A program made the translations under genes and the position numbers. Shown here piece by piece: positions 1 through 7,977 of a stretch of 7,977 nucleotides of DNA. The number at the start of each line of letters is the position of its first letter. The stretch's first letter is position 1. The notes below the pieces were generated by a model that was given only the letters and a program-made list of their open reading frames with translations, did not search any database and had not been told where the DNA came from. The DNA comes from Desulfobacteraceae bacterium (GTDB lineage: Bacteria > Desulfobacterota > Desulfobacteria > Desulfobacterales > Desulfosalsimonadaceae), in NCBI GenBank assembly GCA_007136525.1, contig SLGU01000042.1, positions 1-7,977 on the forward strand, read 5' to 3'.

Positions 1-1366
1 GAAGCTCTCCCATTCCCGATATAATGGTTTCCCCTGTTTCATCGTTGAAGCTCGTGTTGAATGTCGGGTCTTCCTTGACGAACCGGTTCAGTGCCTTTGA
101 CATATTGGCTTCGGATTTATGGTCTTTCGGTTTTACGGACAGCGAAATGACAGGGTCAGGAACATACATCGACGACATGGATACATTGACCCCCGGTGCT
201 GCGAACGTGTCGCCGGAGGCACAGTCAATGCCGAACAGTGCGCCGATGAACCCGGCCGGTATGAGGTCCACATCCTCCATTTTGCTGGCATGCATGCGGA
301 CGATCCGTCCAACCTTTATTTTTTTCCCCGTACGCATGTTGACCATGGTGTCCGCCTTGGCCAGCTGCCCCTGGTAGACGCGTATATAGGTCAGTTGGCC
401 GTATGGGGTGTCCTCGAGCTTGAAAGCGAGCGCCACCAGCGGTTCCGTTGCGGCGGGCTTCAGGGTGATGCTGGCTTCGTTGTTATCGATATCAAGGGCA
501 TGGTTTTCGTGGTCAAAAGGTGAGGGCAGGTAATGACAGAAACCATCCAGCAAAGCCTGAATCCCCTTGTTTTTATATGCCGACCCCATCATAACCGGCG
601 TAAGGCCGCGCTGGACCAACCCCTTGCGTATGGCGATACGAACAACCGCCTCATCGATTTCAGCTTCCTCCAGGATAAGGTCGGTCAGTTCATCCGAGAA
701 TACGGAAGCAGCTTCCAGCAGTTCTTCGCGACGACTTCGCGCCTTGTCAAGGAGGTGCTCCGGTATTTCGGCCTCCCTCACGGCCTGGCCGAATTCGTCT
801 TCGAAGTATAGGGCTTTCATGGTCACGAGGTCAACGACCCCTTGATGCTCGGCTTCCAGGCCGATGGGGATCTGCAGAGGGACCGGGTTGTGTCCCAGCT
901 TTTCGCGCAACTGGGAAATAACCCTGTCCGGGTTGGCGCCGTTTCTGTCGCATTTGTTAATAAAAGCGATACATGGCACCTTGTAACGTTTCATCTGCTG
1001 ATCGACGGTAATGGACTGGGACTGGACGCCGCCCACGCCGCAGAGGACAAGGACGCTGCCGTCCATTACCCGAAGGGCACGCTCCACTTCTATGGTGAAA
1101 TCCACATGCCCGGGCGTGTCGATGATATTGATTTCATGGTTTTCCCACGTACAGTAGGTTGCGGCGGAAGCGATGGTGATGCCGCGCTCCTTTTCAAGAT
1201 CCATGGAGTCCATGGTGGCGCCGACGCCGTCTTTTCCCCGTACTTCATGGATACGGTGAATACGCTTGGTAAGAAACAGGATGCGCTCCGTGAGTGTTGT
1301 TTTGCCCGAGTCGATATGAGCGCTGATGCCGATATTTCGAACCTTCATGATGTCATTTGATGTCAT
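1..1366 (-). CDS. fusA: Elongation factor G, spd/mitochondrial EF-G1-like subfamily (partial, C-terminus beyond left edge)
   Basis: This is a translational GTPase that drives ribosomal translocation in the cytoplasm. About 455 of the usual ~690 residues are visible. Counting from the start at 1366, the P-loop is AHIDSGKT (16-23), switch I is RGITI (61-65), G3 is DTPGH (83-87), G4 is NKCD (137-140) and G5 is GSAYKNKG (261-268). Domain II follows from about residue 295, and domain III begins at the window edge. The signatures [27 protein letters not shown] and LQIPIGLE resemble mitochondrial EF-G1 and the spirochaete/planctomycete/deltaproteobacterial (spd) EF-G group more than classical E. coli FusA. 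In spirochaetes and mitochondria the EF-G1-type paralogue translocates and the EF-G2-type recycles ribosomes, so this is probably the translocase. Two in-frame ATGs exist, at 1366 and 1348. Neither has a strong Shine-Dalgarno, but a GAAAG lies 10 bases before 1366. Plus-strand ORFs across this region are antisense shadows. Confidence 0.95.
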
Positions 1367-1435
1367 TGGTAACGTTGCTTTCAAAAAAAGTATGGATCAG
1401 TATTTCCAACAGCTGACGGATCTGTCAGTAAACCG

Positions 1436-1725: not shown

Positions 1726-2091
1726 TCACAAATGTCTTTTTGCCGCCAGGCGGTCAAGGATCAGGCCGAAAAACACGCTGCCGCCTGCCTGGATAAATCG
1801 CCAACCCATATGGGAAAGGCAGGAACCGCATATCGCCACCTGCCATGAATGGGGTGGAAACCATGTAAATTCATTGGTTGGTCGTCCCATTACGGCGCAT
1901 CCGGGTGCGGCGCCGAAGCATCCGATTTCGTATACAATGCCATGGGGGTTGGCAAAGGTGTGATGGTGGGTACCGCTAACCGCAATACGGCTGGAATCGT
2001 TTGTAATGGCGAACCCGCACTGACGGCATACGATTTGGCCGCTTTCCGTATCTTCTTCTTTGTATTCTGTTTCGACCGTGGGCGCTTCCAT
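1726..2091 (-). CDS. Stand-alone CULT-domain protein (bacterial cereblon-like, Trp-cage ligand binder)
   Basis: The product is a 121-residue cytosolic protein that is almost entirely one CULT domain, the fold of the thalidomide-binding part of human cereblon. Counting from the chosen start, CxxC pairs at C22/C25 and C88/C91 are the expected zinc ligands. NPHG (48-51), GRP (69-71), EFTWF (74-78), W83 and SHMGWRF (93-99) follow in family order. W77, W83, W97 and F99 correspond to cereblon W380, W386, W400 and F402, which line the uracil/glutarimide pocket. The cereblon histidine next to W380 is phenylalanine here (F75), as I recall for the Magnetospirillum homologue MsCI4. There is no Lon-like or DDB1-binding part and no signal peptide. 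The ATG at 2091 is preferred because a GGAAGG lies 6 bases upstream; a longer in-frame version from TTG 2184 or ATG 2175 lacks one. The first ~17 residues are acidic and probably disordered. Fold assignment is firm; the physiological ligand and role are unknown. Confidence 0.9.
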   Translation of the reverse strand: MEAPTVETEYKEEDTESGQIVCRQCGFAITNDSSRIAVSGTHHHTFANPHGIVYEIGCFGAAPGCAVMGRPTNEFTWFPPHSWQVAICGSCLSHMGWRFIQAGGSVFFGLILDRLAAKRHL

Positions 2092-2097
2092 CTCTGC

Positions 2098-2103
2098 CCT
2101 TCC
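2098..2103 (-). promoter_or_regulatory. Shine-Dalgarno site that sets the CULT gene start
   Basis: GGAAGG on the minus strand, 6 bases before the ATG at 2091. It favours this start over the longer in-frame candidates at 2184 (TTG), 2175 and 2172 (ATG), none of which is preceded by a recognisable ribosome-binding site. The resulting length of 121 residues also fits single-domain bacterial CULT proteins. Confidence 0.7.
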
Positions 2104-2213
2104 GCCATTTTGCGGGGGCGTTGACCGGAGCCTTGCGCCGGCTTGTTGAATATCGGAAACAGTTGATCTCATCATATTTTTCAATTAGGATAATAAGCTG
2201 CTCGTATAATTTC

Positions 2214-2242
2214 AATATATATAACATGAACCCTGTTGTCAA
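2214..2242 (-). promoter_or_regulatory. Strong sigma70-type promoter for the CULT gene
   Basis: On the minus strand, TTGACA (2242-2237) is separated by exactly 17 bases from TATATT (2219-2214), 6/6 and 5/6 matches to consensus. Transcription would start near 2207, leaving a leader of about 115 bases before the ATG at 2091. The site lies in the divergent region between the CULT gene and the asnB-like gene. On the plus strand a TATAAT word at 2205-2210 overlaps the presumed start point and might serve the asnB-like gene, but no good -35 box precedes it. Confidence 0.6.
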
Positions 2243-2301: not shown

Positions 2302-4212
2302 ATGTGCGGCATATACGGCATTATTTCAGAACACCTGGACAAAAACACATTGCGCGAAAAGCTCGTGCAAATGGGAAAGCACCAGTCTCACAGGGGGCCG
2401 GACGGCCAAAAGGAAGCCGTTTTTTCATCCGACCGGCAAGGCAGCCCTGTTTCTGTCGGAATGGGGCTCGCCCGGCTTGCTATACTGGATCTGGTCACCG
2501 GCATGCAGCCCATATCCAGCAGGGCTGATGGCACCACCATTGTATGCAACGGGCAGATTTATAATTATATCGAGCTTCGCCCAATGGTGTCGGACTGCGA
2601 TTTTGTGTCCAAAGGAGATGTCGAAGTCGCCCTCCACCTGTACAGGAAAGTCGGCACCCGTTTTCTTGAAGAATTAAACGGCATGTACGGCGGGGCGATT
2701 TATGATCCGGTGAGAAAAAGGGTGCTGCTGTTCAGGGACCGGTTTGGCATCAAGCCCCTGTATTATGCCCAAAACGCCGAAGGGTTTGCTTTTGCATCCG
2801 AAATCAAGCCTTTGTTTGCGGCGCTGGGCATTACGCCGGCCGTGAACCGCGACAACCTGCATGCCTATTTTACCTACCGTTATGTGCCCGGCAGCACCAC
2901 CCTGTTTCAAAACATCCGACGGGTCCCCCCGGGGTCATTTCTGGATTATGACCTTAGAACCGGGACGTTCACAATTCATCGCTATTGGAATTACCGCCCC
3001 GATGAAGACGGGGGGAATTTGACGCTGCCGGAAGCCGCCGAACGCTTTCATGCGCTTTTTATGGATGCCGTCAGGATACGGCTTCGTTCGGACGTGGAAC
3101 TTGGCAGTTTTATCAGCGGCGGCATCGATTCATCCGCCGTTTCGTCGGCTGCGGCGGCTGTTAATCCGCTGATGCGGTTGTATACCATTACCTTTGCGGA
3201 AGAAAAGTATGACGAGCTTCCCCATGTCAGGCACCTTCTGGAAACCATGCCCCATCGGTTCGGCCGGACGCGCCTGGTCCATGCCGCCTGTGGGCCGGAC
3301 GTCCTGCAAAGACTGCCGGGTATCGTTCGCGCCGTTGAAGAGCCCATTTCGTTAGGCACTATGCTGCCTACCGACCAGCTGTGCGCGCTTGCCGCCACCG
3401 ACGTCAAGGCCGTGCTGACCGGTGAGGGGGCGGACGAAATTTTTGCCGGATACCGCAAGTTCATGATAGAGGCCGCAGCAGCCGGATTTTCCGGTTTTAC
3501 CCCAAACCAAAGGCAGCGGCTGCTTTGCGAGTTTCCAGAGCTGCAAAACATTCTGGCTGCCGGAAATGAGCGGGTTGACCCCGGGCTGCGATATATTCGC
3601 TCAGAGGCCCTGTTTTCAGAAGCAGAGTTGAACCGAATGCTTGGTTTTAAGCCGAAAACCGCTTTTTCGGGTGGGGATGCGAAGCCTTACCTGTCGGGCA
3701 ACGAGCATCCCGTGAACATGGCGATTGCATATGAGACGCGCTTTCGCCTGCCGGACTACGTTGTGCTGCGCCTTGACAAGCTGTCCATGCGCCATTCCCT
3801 TGAAACCCGAACGCCGCTGCTGGATTTCCGCTTGGCTGAATTTGCCGCATCCTTGCCCGTATCGATGAAGACCAACCTGTCAATGTACCGGGAAAAGTTT
3901 ATCTGCGCCTACGCCTATCTCAAGTACAAGGTACTGGATCCGGTATCCGCGTTCAGGAAAAAGCAACCCTTCACCTTCCCCATGGCGGATTGGCTTTCCA
4001 GCAAAAAAGATTTGCCTGAATTTATAAGTGATATTATGATGGGTACCCGAATTGCCGAACAGAACATACTTGATCCCGAGGCGGTAAGGGCGCTTGCATC
4101 GAGCGTAACCGGTGAAGGGGTTGGGCCGAACACCCTGGTTTCAGCGGCGGACCGTCTTTTTTCGGTGATCGTTTTTTCCACCTGGGTAGACCAGATGCTT
4201 CAACAGCCATAG
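2302..4212 (+). CDS. asnB: Asparagine-synthetase-like class II glutamine amidotransferase
   Basis: A 636-residue cytosolic enzyme that would hydrolyse glutamine and pass the ammonia to an AMP-activated carboxylate, making an amide. The ATG at 2302 is chosen because it places cysteine at position 2, the N-terminal nucleophile after methionine removal; a longer reading from TTG 2236 would bury it. The glutaminase half shows MCGIYGI, HRGPDG (30-35), CNGQIYNY (82-89) and RDRFGIKPLYY (145-155). The synthetase half shows the ATP-pyrophosphatase loop SGGIDSS (272-278) and GEGADEIFAGY (374-384). The glutamine-pocket word is NGQIYN, where E. coli AsnB has NGEIYN. No strong Shine-Dalgarno is seen. The next gene starts 13 bases downstream, with a ligase and a glutaredoxin behind it, so the acceptor may be something other than aspartate. 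Family certain; asparagine as product only one possibility. Confidence 0.93.
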   Translation: MCGIYGIISEHLDKNTLREKLVQMGKHQSHRGPDGQKEAVFSSDRQGSPVSVGMGLARLAILDLVTGMQPISSRADGTTIVCNGQIYNYIELRPMVSDCDFVSKGDVEVALHLYRKVGTRFLEELNGMYGGAIYDPVRKRVLLFRDRFGIKPLYYAQNAEGFAFASEIKPLFAALGITPAVNRDNLHAYFTYRYVPGSTTLFQNIRRVPPGSFLDYDLRTGTFTIHRYWNYRPDEDGGNLTLPEAAERFHALFMDAVRIRLRSDVELGSFISGGIDSSAVSSAAAAVNPLMRLYTITFAEEKYDELPHVRHLLETMPHRFGRTRLVHAACGPDVLQRLPGIVRAVEEPISLGTMLPTDQLCALAATDVKAVLTGEGADEIFAGYRKFMIEAAAAGFSGFTPNQRQRLLCEFPELQNILAAGNERVDPGLRYIRSEALFSEAELNRMLGFKPKTAFSGGDAKPYLSGNEHPVNMAIAYETRFRLPDYVVLRLDKLSMRHSLETRTPLLDFRLAEFAASLPVSMKTNLSMYREKFICAYAYLKYKVLDPVSAFRKKQPFTFPMADWLSSKKDLPEFISDIMMGTRIAEQNILDPEAVRALASSVTGEGVGPNTLVSAADRLFSVIVFSTWVDQMLQQP

Positions 4213-4225
4213 ACAGGAACCTATA

Positions 4226-5149
4226 TTGAGCCCAAACAGCCATGAAACGCCCCTTGCGGATACCTTTTGCCGCCATTACCTGGAGACATTGTCCTGTAAT
4301 CTGCCCAGAAAACACCGGACATACGGCTTTGAATACGAGTTTCTGCCGGAAGAAATGCTAAGCATTCAGGACATGGTCCGCATTGACCAGCTTCTGGGGG
4401 AGATGGGCGGAGAAAAAATCGCGGGAGATCGGTTGTTTGAAAGCGGCATGCGGGTGACCTTTGAGCCGGGAGGGCAGATCGAGTACTGCAGCCCGCCCTT
4501 GCTTTCCGATGATGATGAAAAGCTGGATCATCTGCTTGGGTTTATCCATGATGTAAACAGTGAAATCCGGGATCGTCTCGGCATCCACTATAAAGCGGTT
4601 GGATATCTTCCCGGGAGGGCAAATTACCCCTTGTGCCTGCGATCGGCAAGATACCTGCACCTTCATAAACGGCTGTCGGTGAGCGGCACCCGGGGGCATG
4701 AAATGATGAAGGGGACTGCATCGATTCATCTGCATGTGTCCATCAGTTGCCTGGACGAACTGCTTCCCCTGTTTTATTTTCTTTGTGCGCTCAGCCGAAG
4801 CGAGGATTTCGGCATGTCCGGGGACCGCCGGGACATCTGGCTGCATACCGACCCGACCCGATGCGGGGAGCCCCCCTGCTGCATGGAAAACCTGTCATCA
4901 CCGGAGCAGTTGATTGACCGGCTGATCCGGTATGGGCTCCAGGTAGTGGTGCTCGGTGAGCAGGTGCCGTTTGAAAGCGCTTCAGACCGATCTTTTTCGG
5001 CATTTTTGTATCATATGACAACGGTTTTCACCAATGTCCGCTTTAACCTCAAGGGCCCCACTTTGGAGATGCGCACATTGGACAGCATGCCCATTGACCG
5101 GTTCCGGGTGAAATGGAGGGATTTTATCAATTTGGCAAAAATCGTATAA
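4226..5149 (+). CDS. GCS2-family carboxylate-amine ligase (glutamate-cysteine-ligase-like), short form
   Basis: The 307-residue product has the motif series of the GCS2 ligases (plant GSH1, EgtA, YbdK type), which use ATP to join the gamma-carboxylate of glutamate to an amine such as cysteine. GFEYEF (34-39) and EPGGQIEYCSPP (80-91) supply acidic metal and substrate ligands. MMKGTASIHLHVSI (160-173) matches the central strand, DIWLHTDPTRCG (203-214) matches the nucleotide/substrate segment, and LEMRTLDSMP (280-289) matches the late E-x-R-x-x-D block. The protein ends soon after this block and is clearly shorter than EgtA or plant GSH1 (roughly 430-450 residues), lacking their C-terminal part. 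The start is a TTG with AGGA 8 bases upstream. It lies 13 bases after the asnB-like gene and 23 before the glutaredoxin gene. No glutathione synthetase gene is in view. The family is well supported; the acceptor amine is unknown. Confidence 0.82.
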   Translation: MSPNSHETPLADTFCRHYLETLSCNLPRKHRTYGFEYEFLPEEMLSIQDMVRIDQLLGEMGGEKIAGDRLFESGMRVTFEPGGQIEYCSPPLLSDDDEKLDHLLGFIHDVNSEIRDRLGIHYKAVGYLPGRANYPLCLRSARYLHLHKRLSVSGTRGHEMMKGTASIHLHVSISCLDELLPLFYFLCALSRSEDFGMSGDRRDIWLHTDPTRCGEPPCCMENLSSPEQLIDRLIRYGLQVVVLGEQVPFESASDRSFSAFLYHMTTVFTNVRFNLKGPTLEMRTLDSMPIDRFRVKWRDFINLAKIV

Positions 5150-5172
5150 TAATTTACTTCACAGGAGAAATC

Positions 5173-5433
5173 ATGGCCGTAATCGAGATTTACACGACAC
5201 TTGCCTGTCCGTATTGTACGGGCGCCAAAGACCTGCTGACCCGGAAAGGGGTTTCCTTTACCGAAATACGCATTGAAGGCAGCCCGGAAAAAATGGCTGA
5301 AGCAAAAAAGAGAAGCGGCGGCCGGATGACGGTACCCCAGATTTTTATTGATAATGTGCACATCGGCGGATATGATGAACTGAATGCACTGGACCGTGAC
5401 GGAAAACTCGACCCGATGCTGGGTGTTTCATAA
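5173..5433 (+). CDS. grxC: Glutaredoxin, dithiol CPYC type (Grx3-like)
   Basis: An 86-residue cytosolic thiol-disulfide oxidoreductase with the thioredoxin fold. The active site CPYC is at residues 12-15, the cis-proline motif TVP at 53-55 and the thiol-binding GGYDEL at 65-70. The length matches E. coli glutaredoxin 3. The ATG at 5173 is preceded by AGGAGA at a good distance; an upstream in-frame ATG at 5113 lies inside the ligase gene and would add an atypical extension. It follows the GCS2-like gene by 23 bases, so the pair is probably co-transcribed. Glutaredoxins are usually reduced by a low-molecular-weight thiol, which makes the adjacent gamma-glutamyl-type ligase functionally suggestive. 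Confidence 0.95.
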   Translation: MAVIEIYTTLACPYCTGAKDLLTRKGVSFTEIRIEGSPEKMAEAKKRSGGRMTVPQIFIDNVHIGGYDELNALDRDGKLDPMLGVS

Positions 5434-6240: not shown

Positions 6241-7977
6241 TCAATCACCATCCAGTGCTTTTCTCAGGGCAAAAGCCAGATCGCTTTTTGAAATTGGCTT
6301 TTGGAGCAAGGTGTTGATTTTCCTTTGAGCTGATTTTTCCCGGGTTACCTTGTCATTATAGCCTGTGCACAAAACAATGGGGATGTCCGGGCGCAGCTTG
6401 CGGATTTTTTCGGCAAGTTCGATGCCGGTCATATTCGGCATGGCCTGATCCGTGAGGAGCAGGTCGAACATGTCGGGCCGGCGGCTGAAAATTTCAAGGG
6501 CCTTGATGCTGTCGGCCACCGCTGTCACGTGATAGCCCAGGCTCTCAAGCACCTGGTGCTGGAGGTCGACGATCCGCTGTTCGTCGTCCACCAGCAGTAT
6601 TCGCTCAGAGCCGGTCGGGTCGGATGCCGAGGAATGTCGTTGCGCCTCCGGTTCGGATGCCGTGTCATCGGCCACCCGAAGGTAAACGTCAAAACGCGCC
6701 CCCCTGCCCGGATCACTTTCTACCAGTATTGTCCCGCCGGTGTTCTTTATGATTCCGTAGCTGACAGAAAGGCCTAAACCGGTACCCTTGTCCCGGGATT
6801 TGGTTGTAAAATAAGGCTCGAATATCTTGTCTGCCAGGTCAGGTTCAATACCGCATCCGGTATCCGATACGGAGACCCGGATATATCTGCCGGGAGTGAC
6901 TTTTCCCCAGGCGGGCGAAGTTGCGTCGAACACCCCGATCTCCTCCAGGCTCACCGACATGGTGCCGGTGCCGCATTCCTCCATCGCCTGGTAAGCGTTG
7001 GTGCAGAGGTTCATGATCACCTGATGGATGCGGGAAGGGGTGATCAATATTTTTCCGGTATTCCGGTTGATTTCATGGCGGATTTCGATGTTGGAAGGGA
7101 TGGTGGTCTGGAGCAGCTTGAGCGTTTCCAGGATGATGGGATGGATCTGGATCGGATGGACATCCTCGTCGGCGGAACGCCTGCTGAAGTTGAGAATCTG
7201 TTCTATGAGATCCCTGGCCCGGTTTGCGGATTTCAAAACCTTCTCTAAGTTTTCGTAGGTCTTGCTGCACACGGGCACGCCTTTCATGGCAAGGTCGGTG
7301 TACCCGATAATGGGGAAAAGGATATTGTTGAAATCATGCGCGATCCCCCCCGCAAGCGTGCCGATGGACTCCATTTTCTGGGACTGGTGTAGTTGGTTTT
7401 CAAGTTCTTTCCGGTTCTCCTGGGCTTTCGCGCGTTCCGTCACGTCCCGCAAAATCCCCTGGAAGCCGACTGGATTGCCATTCTTGTCTTTGCGCAGGGA
7501 TATGGATGTTTCAACAAAACAGGAAAAGCCGTCTTTGCGAACCATCTGCCAGTCAAAGGTTTTTATGGGATTGCCGGTCCTGTACACATAATTGAAGGTT
7601 TCAAATAAGACTTTCTGGTAGTCATCATGGACGATATCCCGGTAGTTCTTCCCAATGAGTTCATCGCAGGGGCAGCCGAGGAGGCGGCAGAACTGCGCAT
7701 TGAAAAACTCGTAATTGCCCTTCAGGTCAACCTCATAGTATCCGTCCTCGATAGAATCGAGTATGCTCCGATACTTCTTTTCGCTTTCCCGGATTGCTTT
7801 TCTGGCTTCCATCCGTTCGGTCACGTTTCTTGAAATGCCTCGCACACCGATCGCTTTCCCGTCCTCGCGGCGGATCACGGAGCTCATGTACTCCAGGACC
7901 ATTGGCTCCCCGCGCCGGTTGAATACGTTGATGTAGCCGCTGTCAAAGTCGGTTTTCCGGATGCGCTCGAGGTAATC
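6241..7977 (-). CDS. PAS-containing hybrid sensor histidine kinase with C-terminal receiver (partial, N-terminus beyond right edge)
   Basis: A two-component sensor with 578 visible residues; the frame is open to the window edge, so the internal ATG at 7902 is not the true start. Counting from the first visible codon, the end of one PAS/PAC domain (to ~58) is followed by a full PAS/PAC domain (~64-185). A short coiled linker leads to the HisKA H-box GGIAHDFNNIL with phospho-acceptor H214, then the HATPase_c domain with N-box VIMNLCTNAYQAM (N323, N327), G1 DTGCG (372-376) and G2 GTGLGLS (398-404). The receiver domain has the acidic pair D464-D465, phospho-acceptor D510 in LLLTDQAMPN and K560. 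The kinase core is of the NtrB-like type. The signal is unknown and no membrane segment is visible in this part. No unfused response regulator gene lies nearby; the attached receiver would take the phosphate first. Confidence 0.96.
   Translation of the reverse strand, partial: DYLERIRKTDFDSGYINVFNRRGEPMVLEYMSSVIRREDGKAIGVRGISRNVTERMEARKAIRESEKKYRSILDSIEDGYYEVDLKGNYEFFNAQFCRLLGCPCDELIGKNYRDIVHDDYQKVLFETFNYVYRTGNPIKTFDWQMVRKDGFSCFVETSISLRKDKNGNPVGFQGILRDVTERAKAQENRKELENQLHQSQKMESIGTLAGGIAHDFNNILFPIIGYTDLAMKGVPVCSKTYENLEKVLKSANRARDLIEQILNFSRRSADEDVHPIQIHPIILETLKLLQTTIPSNIEIRHEINRNTGKILITPSRIHQVIMNLCTNAYQAMEECGTGTMSVSLEEIGVFDATSPAWGKVTPGRYIRVSVSDTGCGIEPDLADKIFEPYFTTKSRDKGTGLGLSVSYGIIKNTGGTILVESDPGRGARFDVYLRVADDTASEPEAQRHSSASDPTGSERILLVDDEQRIVDLQHQVLESLGYHVTAVADSIKALEIFSRRPDMFDLLLTDQAMPNMTGIELAEKIRKLRPDIPIVLCTGYNDKVTREKSAQRKINTLLQKPISKSDLAFALRKALDGD

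Follow-up and report, generated by a model that had tools for sequence, protein, structure and literature searches.

The 7,977-bp stretch analysed here (the window; contig SLGU01000042.1, assembly GCA_007136525.1) encodes on its minus strand a small protein whose only recognisable domain is CULT, the thalidomide-binding domain of cereblon (CRBN). The protein is almost certainly a stand-alone member of the known bacterial cereblon-like group, carried by a Desulfobacterales-like organism and probably expressed from a promoter of its own. We propose tentatively, as a possibility somewhat short of probable, that it takes part in protein quality control as a reader of C-terminal cyclic imides.

Identity, fold and binding pocket

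In phmmer comparisons, residues 52-147 of the 152-aa open frame matched MsCI4 (cereblon isoform 4 of Magnetospirillum gryphiswaldense, MGR_0879), with E values of 7.7e-26 for the mutant construct 6r0q and 8e-25 for 4v2y. Cereblon chains were matched with E values from 4.4e-15 to 9.3e-12. MsCI4 is likewise a stand-alone bacterial CULT protein with two CxxC pairs and three cage tryptophans, and is about 40% identical to the window protein. A search of 5.8 billion proteins returned 663 relatives at E ≤ 1e-3, and four of the 120 best of these are named 'cereblon family protein' (P0005, P0018, P0077 and P0086). The closest named relative, L001, is 76% identical and comes from a Desulfobacterales metagenome-assembled genome.

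No Pfam family scored above its cut-off on the window protein, and the LON domain was likewise unmatched in the 152-aa frame; NCBIfam gave no match at E ≤ 1. The protein thus differs from cereblon, in which a LON-like domain is fused to CULT, and the DDB1-binding region of CRBN is not to be expected in a one-domain protein. It consists of the CULT domain alone, as do the Group I bacterial proteins of Lupas et al. 2015 (PMC4287342), from which it shows no essential difference. That paper defines CULT and describes the stand-alone bacterial proteins, mainly from delta-proteobacteria, as one main group. The window protein is therefore a further member of a group described in 2015 and not a new kind, and the novelty implied by the first-pass annotation is low. 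That annotation's CULT identity and its statement that no other domain is present were both borne out, the former by the MsCI4 and cereblon matches and by the fold described below. The Yippee/Mis18 model PF03226 did not appear among the Pfam matches to the window protein at E ≤ 1. By contrast, of 120 listed proteins related to a second, more divergent CULT clade, 117 had a precomputed PF03226 match.

An AlphaFold2 model built from 38 sequences had a mean pLDDT of 81.0 and a pTM of 0.65. Block means of pLDDT were 87-98 over residues 51-150, and the first ~50 residues, which distinguish the protein from MsCI4, were of low confidence. The best match in the PDB by Foldseek was MsCI4 6r0q (E 5.6e-12, TM 0.91 by target length, rmsd 1.7); 4v2y gave a TM of 0.90 by target length, and cereblon chains followed from E 4.5e-10. 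The structural comparison proposed in the first-pass annotation thus agreed with the sequence matches, and the window protein is predicted to adopt the beta-tent fold with MsCI4/cereblon topology.

The binding pocket was examined in an alignment of 169 sequences, which combines the 120 listed best matches of the window-protein search with 49 loci. These sets overlap, so that close relatives are over-represented, and the second clade supplies only six rows. The presumed zinc cysteines and the cage residues W77, W83, W97 and F99 of the earlier 121-aa numbering had been read correctly; the cage residues become W108, W114, W128 and F130 in the 152-aa frame. F109, N79 and H75 were invariant. The cage, the CxxC pairs, N79 and H75 were kept in 168-169 of the 169 sequences, compared with a mean column identity of 39% in the 38-sequence alignment, indicating that the binding site is under selection. 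Uracil- or glutarimide-type binding by the window protein would be expected from homology to MsCI4, and on this the earlier proposal was supported (PMC4449219).

The base of the cage is phenylalanine in the window protein and Tyr101 in MsCI4. Human cereblon has the same cage tryptophans as the window protein, and both lack the tyrosine hydroxyl found in MsCI4 (PMC8900816). Natural members with a Phe base, such as the window protein, could serve as soluble surrogates for the human pocket; in MsCI4, full chemical identity with the human cage requires the Y101F change (PMC8900816). Two further cysteines, C89 and C96, were conserved in most sequences, the latter replaced by Leu in MsCI4; a disulfide, metal or redox role is possible. 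The six second-clade sequences (alignment A3) have an invariant cysteine pair of their own, at positions that differ from C89 and C96.

Among 395 genomes drawn from the phylum of G005, 39 contained a CULT match at E ≤ 1e-6: 38 had a single match and one had two. An origin from phages or other mobile elements was considered and rejected, with no CULT match in PLSDB plasmids or INPHARED phages and, in viral contigs, no confirmed CULT relative among 34 stretches that fitted a pattern.

A candidate role in protein quality control and its alternatives

Cereblon recognises C-terminal cyclic imides, and human PCMT1, the counterpart of PIMT, can generate such an imide (PMC11974815, PMC13001092). In the mechanism that we propose, the window protein would act as a receptor in solution, with the three cage tryptophans enclosing a small ring of the cyclic imide type. 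In nature this ring would most likely be a C-terminal cyclic imide at asparagine or glutamine of damaged or cleaved proteins. Its capture would mark damaged proteins for quality control, and captured proteins could plausibly be handed over to an ATP-dependent protease. For the window protein, we infer zinc binding, ligand binding, an imide as the ligand and protease hand-over. If CULT proteins do recognise C-terminal cyclic imides, the use of this pocket to watch for protein damage may be older than ubiquitin. PMC4287342 and PMC4449219 do not settle what CULT proteins do natively in bacteria, and the caution in the first-pass annotation that the natural role is unexplained was fair.

A lead on the protease came from the second clade. 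The divergent set matched MsCI4 (E 5.4e-24) and cereblon (E 5.2e-20) by profile; the clades are a grouping only, from a tree printed without support values and with L078 (68 residues) left out. Gene neighbourhoods were compared over 68 CULT loci (952 kb), with flanks of up to ~10 kb that shrank almost to zero at contig ends, and with genes predicted from codon usage, taking the CULT frame as the anchor. A LonB-type protease gene and a bifunctional-nuclease-domain (BFN) gene lay beside CULT on the same strand in 5/24 second-clade loci, all from one class. In this class, that of G141, the A3 profile matched CULT in 8/85 genomes at E ≤ 1e-8, and in six of the eight at E < 1e-50; five of those six had their CULT and LonB matches 35-782 bp apart. 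Gene order was CULT-LonB-BFN in L073, L074 and L089, and LonB-BFN-CULT in L088 and L090. CULT stands on either side of a constant LonB-BFN pair, so that a single frozen order of genes does not describe the linkage, but all five genomes come from the one class.

The LonB proteins of L073 and L074 contained AAA_32, LonB lid, LonC helical and Lon_C domains. LonB of this type (at least 69% identity) was found in 11/85 genomes of the class, with BFN adjacent in all 11 and CULT adjacent in five. In one other, G460, CULT was on another contig, and in the remaining five the A3 profile found no CULT, in assemblies that may be incomplete. Some LonB match at E ≤ 1e-100 was present in 72/85 genomes, and at 19 more distant LonB loci that were checked the BFN gene was never adjacent. 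What turned up in place of a cereblon-type LON domain was a catalytic LonB protease, in the other clade, and this linkage is the part of the analysis that a specialist might not expect. No report of it, or of a function for CULT in bacteria, was found among the papers listed by a literature search limited to openly licensed work.

The LonB association suggests that CULT proteins of the second clade may act as proteolytic adaptors. In an extended form, bacterial CULT proteins would be ubiquitin-independent adaptors that feed imide-ended damaged proteins to LonB-type AAA+ proteases; cereblon, with Lon-like and CULT domains in one chain, would be the eukaryotic descendant of an older CULT/Lon-type pairing, and the window protein would read imides in the same way, for a protease whose gene lies elsewhere in the genome. 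We consider this extended form quite unlikely. The adaptor idea recalls E. coli clpS-clpA, where the gene for a small recognition protein immediately precedes that for an AAA+ protease subunit, as CULT precedes LonB in L089, L073 and L074. No homology is claimed, and the window gene has no such arrangement.

Several results weigh against the imide-reader proposal and its protease step. No protease gene neighbours CULT within the window, and adjacent LonB was missing from 63/68 loci at E ≤ 1e-5. At the same threshold, ClpP, ClpX, ClpA, ClpS, HslU, HslV, FtsH and E. coli-type Lon were found in 0/68. Two further classes had clade-II CULT at E ≤ 1e-20 in 6/42 and 12/55 genomes, and LonB was near CULT in none of those 18 loci within the flanking DNA examined. 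As the LonB link is limited to one class, common descent could account for a large part of it. CULT neighbours vary by lineage across the 68 loci. PIMT was present in 38/39 CULT-bearing genomes and in 378/395 overall, and because it is near-ubiquitous its co-occurrence discriminates nothing; as a test of an imide pathway it was set aside as uninformative. Among control genes, FolP, IspD, MenA, TruD and a trigger-factor fragment were found in 0/68 loci and Pcm in one (L105, 4.5 kb from CULT). In L069, one of the 63 loci that lack adjacent LonB, a LonB-like stretch of 31% identity lies on the strand opposite to CULT, at a distance of 6.6 kb.

The pocket may instead hold a small molecule. MsCI4 binds thalidomide and uridine in the low-micromolar range, the latter given without a consolidated biological context in PMC4449219, and has been co-crystallised with deoxyuridine (4v31); ligands of the uracil/uridine and side-chain types are discussed by Lupas et al. 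2015 (PMC4287342). The window protein has the same cage tryptophans as MsCI4 and could bind free uracil or uridine, either reporting pyrimidine status or serving in uracil handling. However, Pfam attached no effector domain to it, and no pyrimidine gene was among the 25 commonest of the 130 Pfam families in 91 immediate CULT neighbours. We regard a uracil or uridine sensor as unlikely. The ligand could also be some other small cyclic compound that has no link to protein turnover, such as a hydantoin, a lactam, an aspartimide-bearing peptide product or an unknown metabolite. The similarity of bacterial and eukaryotic CULT has been argued to indicate a widespread ligand and not a linear motif (Lupas et al. 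2015, PMC4287342), a number of lactams and imides are bound to MsCI4 in PDB entries, and bacteria make aspartimide-containing RiPPs (PMC13001092). Against this, the 68 loci share no biosynthetic or transport context beside CULT. Such a binder or scavenger is a doubtful candidate but one to be taken seriously.

Different lineages might also use CULT differently, each protein serving its local operon partner (hemC-hemD in tetrapyrrole synthesis, or LonB) with no family-wide role. Three arrangements did recur in the 68 loci: hemD in 8/68, with a further fragment in L009, asnB/EF-G in 7/68 and LonB-BFN in 5/68. Across these groups, however, the pocket is nearly invariant, which suggests one ligand, and we judge lineage-specific functions very unlikely. 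The reading of CULT as a receptor for C-terminal cyclic imides is the one we tentatively prefer.

Gene start and promoter

The CULT open frame spans 152 codons at 1726-2184 on the minus strand, opening at TTG 2184, and encloses the 121-aa frame (1726-2091) on which the first-pass annotation was based. That frame is real, but its start at ATG 2091 is doubtful and probably too short, with the actual start lying upstream at 2175 or 2172. L001 has isoleucine at the position of the 2091 Met and shares the upstream sequence LKNMM-STVSDIQ, which favours an upstream start. The purine-rich stretch ahead of ATG 2091 could possibly support an internal start there.

Over codons 51-150 (99 compared), the window and L001 differed at 4, 7 and 25 first, second and third codon positions, with 22 synonymous and 11 non-synonymous codon differences, a pattern as expected under purifying selection. 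Residues 4-31 evolved faster: in a gap-free alignment of these 28 codons, there were 4 synonymous and 12 non-synonymous differences.

A sigma-70-like promoter (TTGACA-17-TATATT) was found 5' of the gene, at a position in keeping with translation from 2175 or 2172. By itself the match is weak, as a scan of the 1-kb region returned three such sites compared with 1.6 expected from shuffled sequence. Identical hexamers with the same spacing also lie upstream of the CULT gene of L001.

Neighbouring genes

Table 1. Features of the window. Residues are numbered in the 152-aa frame; conservation is in the 169-sequence alignment.
Feature	Position	Strand	Details
EF-G, cut by the window end	2..1384	minus	Downstream of CULT, same strand; Pfam GTP_EFTU, EFG_III
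CULT-family gene	1726..2175	minus	Favoured 149 aa from ATG 2175; alternative 148 aa from ATG 2172
CULT (beta-tent) domain	1735..2037	minus	About residues 50-150, from phmmer range and pLDDT
Cage base F130 (MsCI4 Tyr101; PMC8900816)	1795..1797	minus	F 143, Y 25, gap 1
Cage W128 (MsCI4 W99, human W400; PMC8900816)	1801..1803	minus	168/169 and one gap
Second CxxC (C119, C122), presumed zinc site	1819..1830	minus	168/169, the remaining one a gap
Cage W114 (MsCI4 W85, human W386; PMC8900816)	1843..1845	minus	169/169
Cage W108 (MsCI4 W79, human W380; PMC8900816)	1861..1863	minus	169/169
Conserved cysteine C96 (Leu in MsCI4)	1897..1899	minus	C in 155/169
Conserved cysteine C89 (Cys in MsCI4 too)	1918..1920	minus	C in 158/169
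First CxxC (C53, C56), presumed zinc site	2017..2028	minus	169/169
Sigma-70-like promoter TTGACA-17-TATATT	2214..2242	minus	5' of the CULT gene; 11/12 consensus matches
Asparagine-synthase-type amidotransferase (asnB-type, from MCGIYG)	2302..4212	plus	Divergent neighbour; TIGR01536 above cut-off

The asnB/EF-G arrangement is that of the window itself, with a divergent asnB-type gene and EF-G downstream on the CULT strand. A gap of ~340 bp separates CULT from EF-G in the window, making a common operon unlikely. Within this gap lies a 17-bp motif (1548-1564), which recurs between CULT and EF-G in L001 at 1717-1733, in the opposite orientation relative to CULT. Such a reversal might be expected of a small repeat that is mobile or dispersed; an exact copy was found in 1/140 loci.

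A fused hemD gene (uroporphyrinogen-III methyltransferase/synthase) adjoined CULT on the same strand in L007, L008, L010, L011, L061, L062, L065 and L068; L010 comes from the cultured Desulfofustis glycolicus DSM 9705. In L065 the two matches abut, with a negative computed distance, and four of the hemD-CULT loci also contained hemC. L009, at a contig end, has a 42-aa hemD fragment near CULT, a ninth case. Human UROD, another enzyme of the haem pathway, is reported to be a PCMT1-dependent cereblon substrate (PMC11974815); its parallel with the hemD-CULT adjacency is possibly a coincidence.

The Pfam scan covered 91 of 93 immediate neighbours (two short ones were dropped), and the commonest 25 families were tallied: HemD 7, TP_methylase 7, glutamine amidotransferase 6 and SNF2 5. 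A universal partner identified by guilt-by-association was rejected, as the commonest families were read as lineage synteny. No neighbour was common to all 68 loci, and outside the three recurring arrangements none was shared by many. A split cereblon, with a separate LON gene beside CULT, was also considered: Pfam found no LON domain in 26 chosen neighbours from the window and 11 loci, and a single LON match among the 91 neighbours could lie outside the tallied families.

The asnB-type gene of the window belongs to a trio at 2302-5433 on the plus strand, together with a GCS2-type ligase and glutaredoxin 3. The latter two accompany asnB in 6/68 CULT loci. Matches of the ligase to EgtA and plant glutamate-cysteine ligase models were far below cut-off, and the trio could be involved in the synthesis or use of an unusual low-molecular-weight thiol. 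At 6241-7977 on the minus strand, an ordinary PAS-histidine kinase with a C-terminal receiver domain runs off the window.
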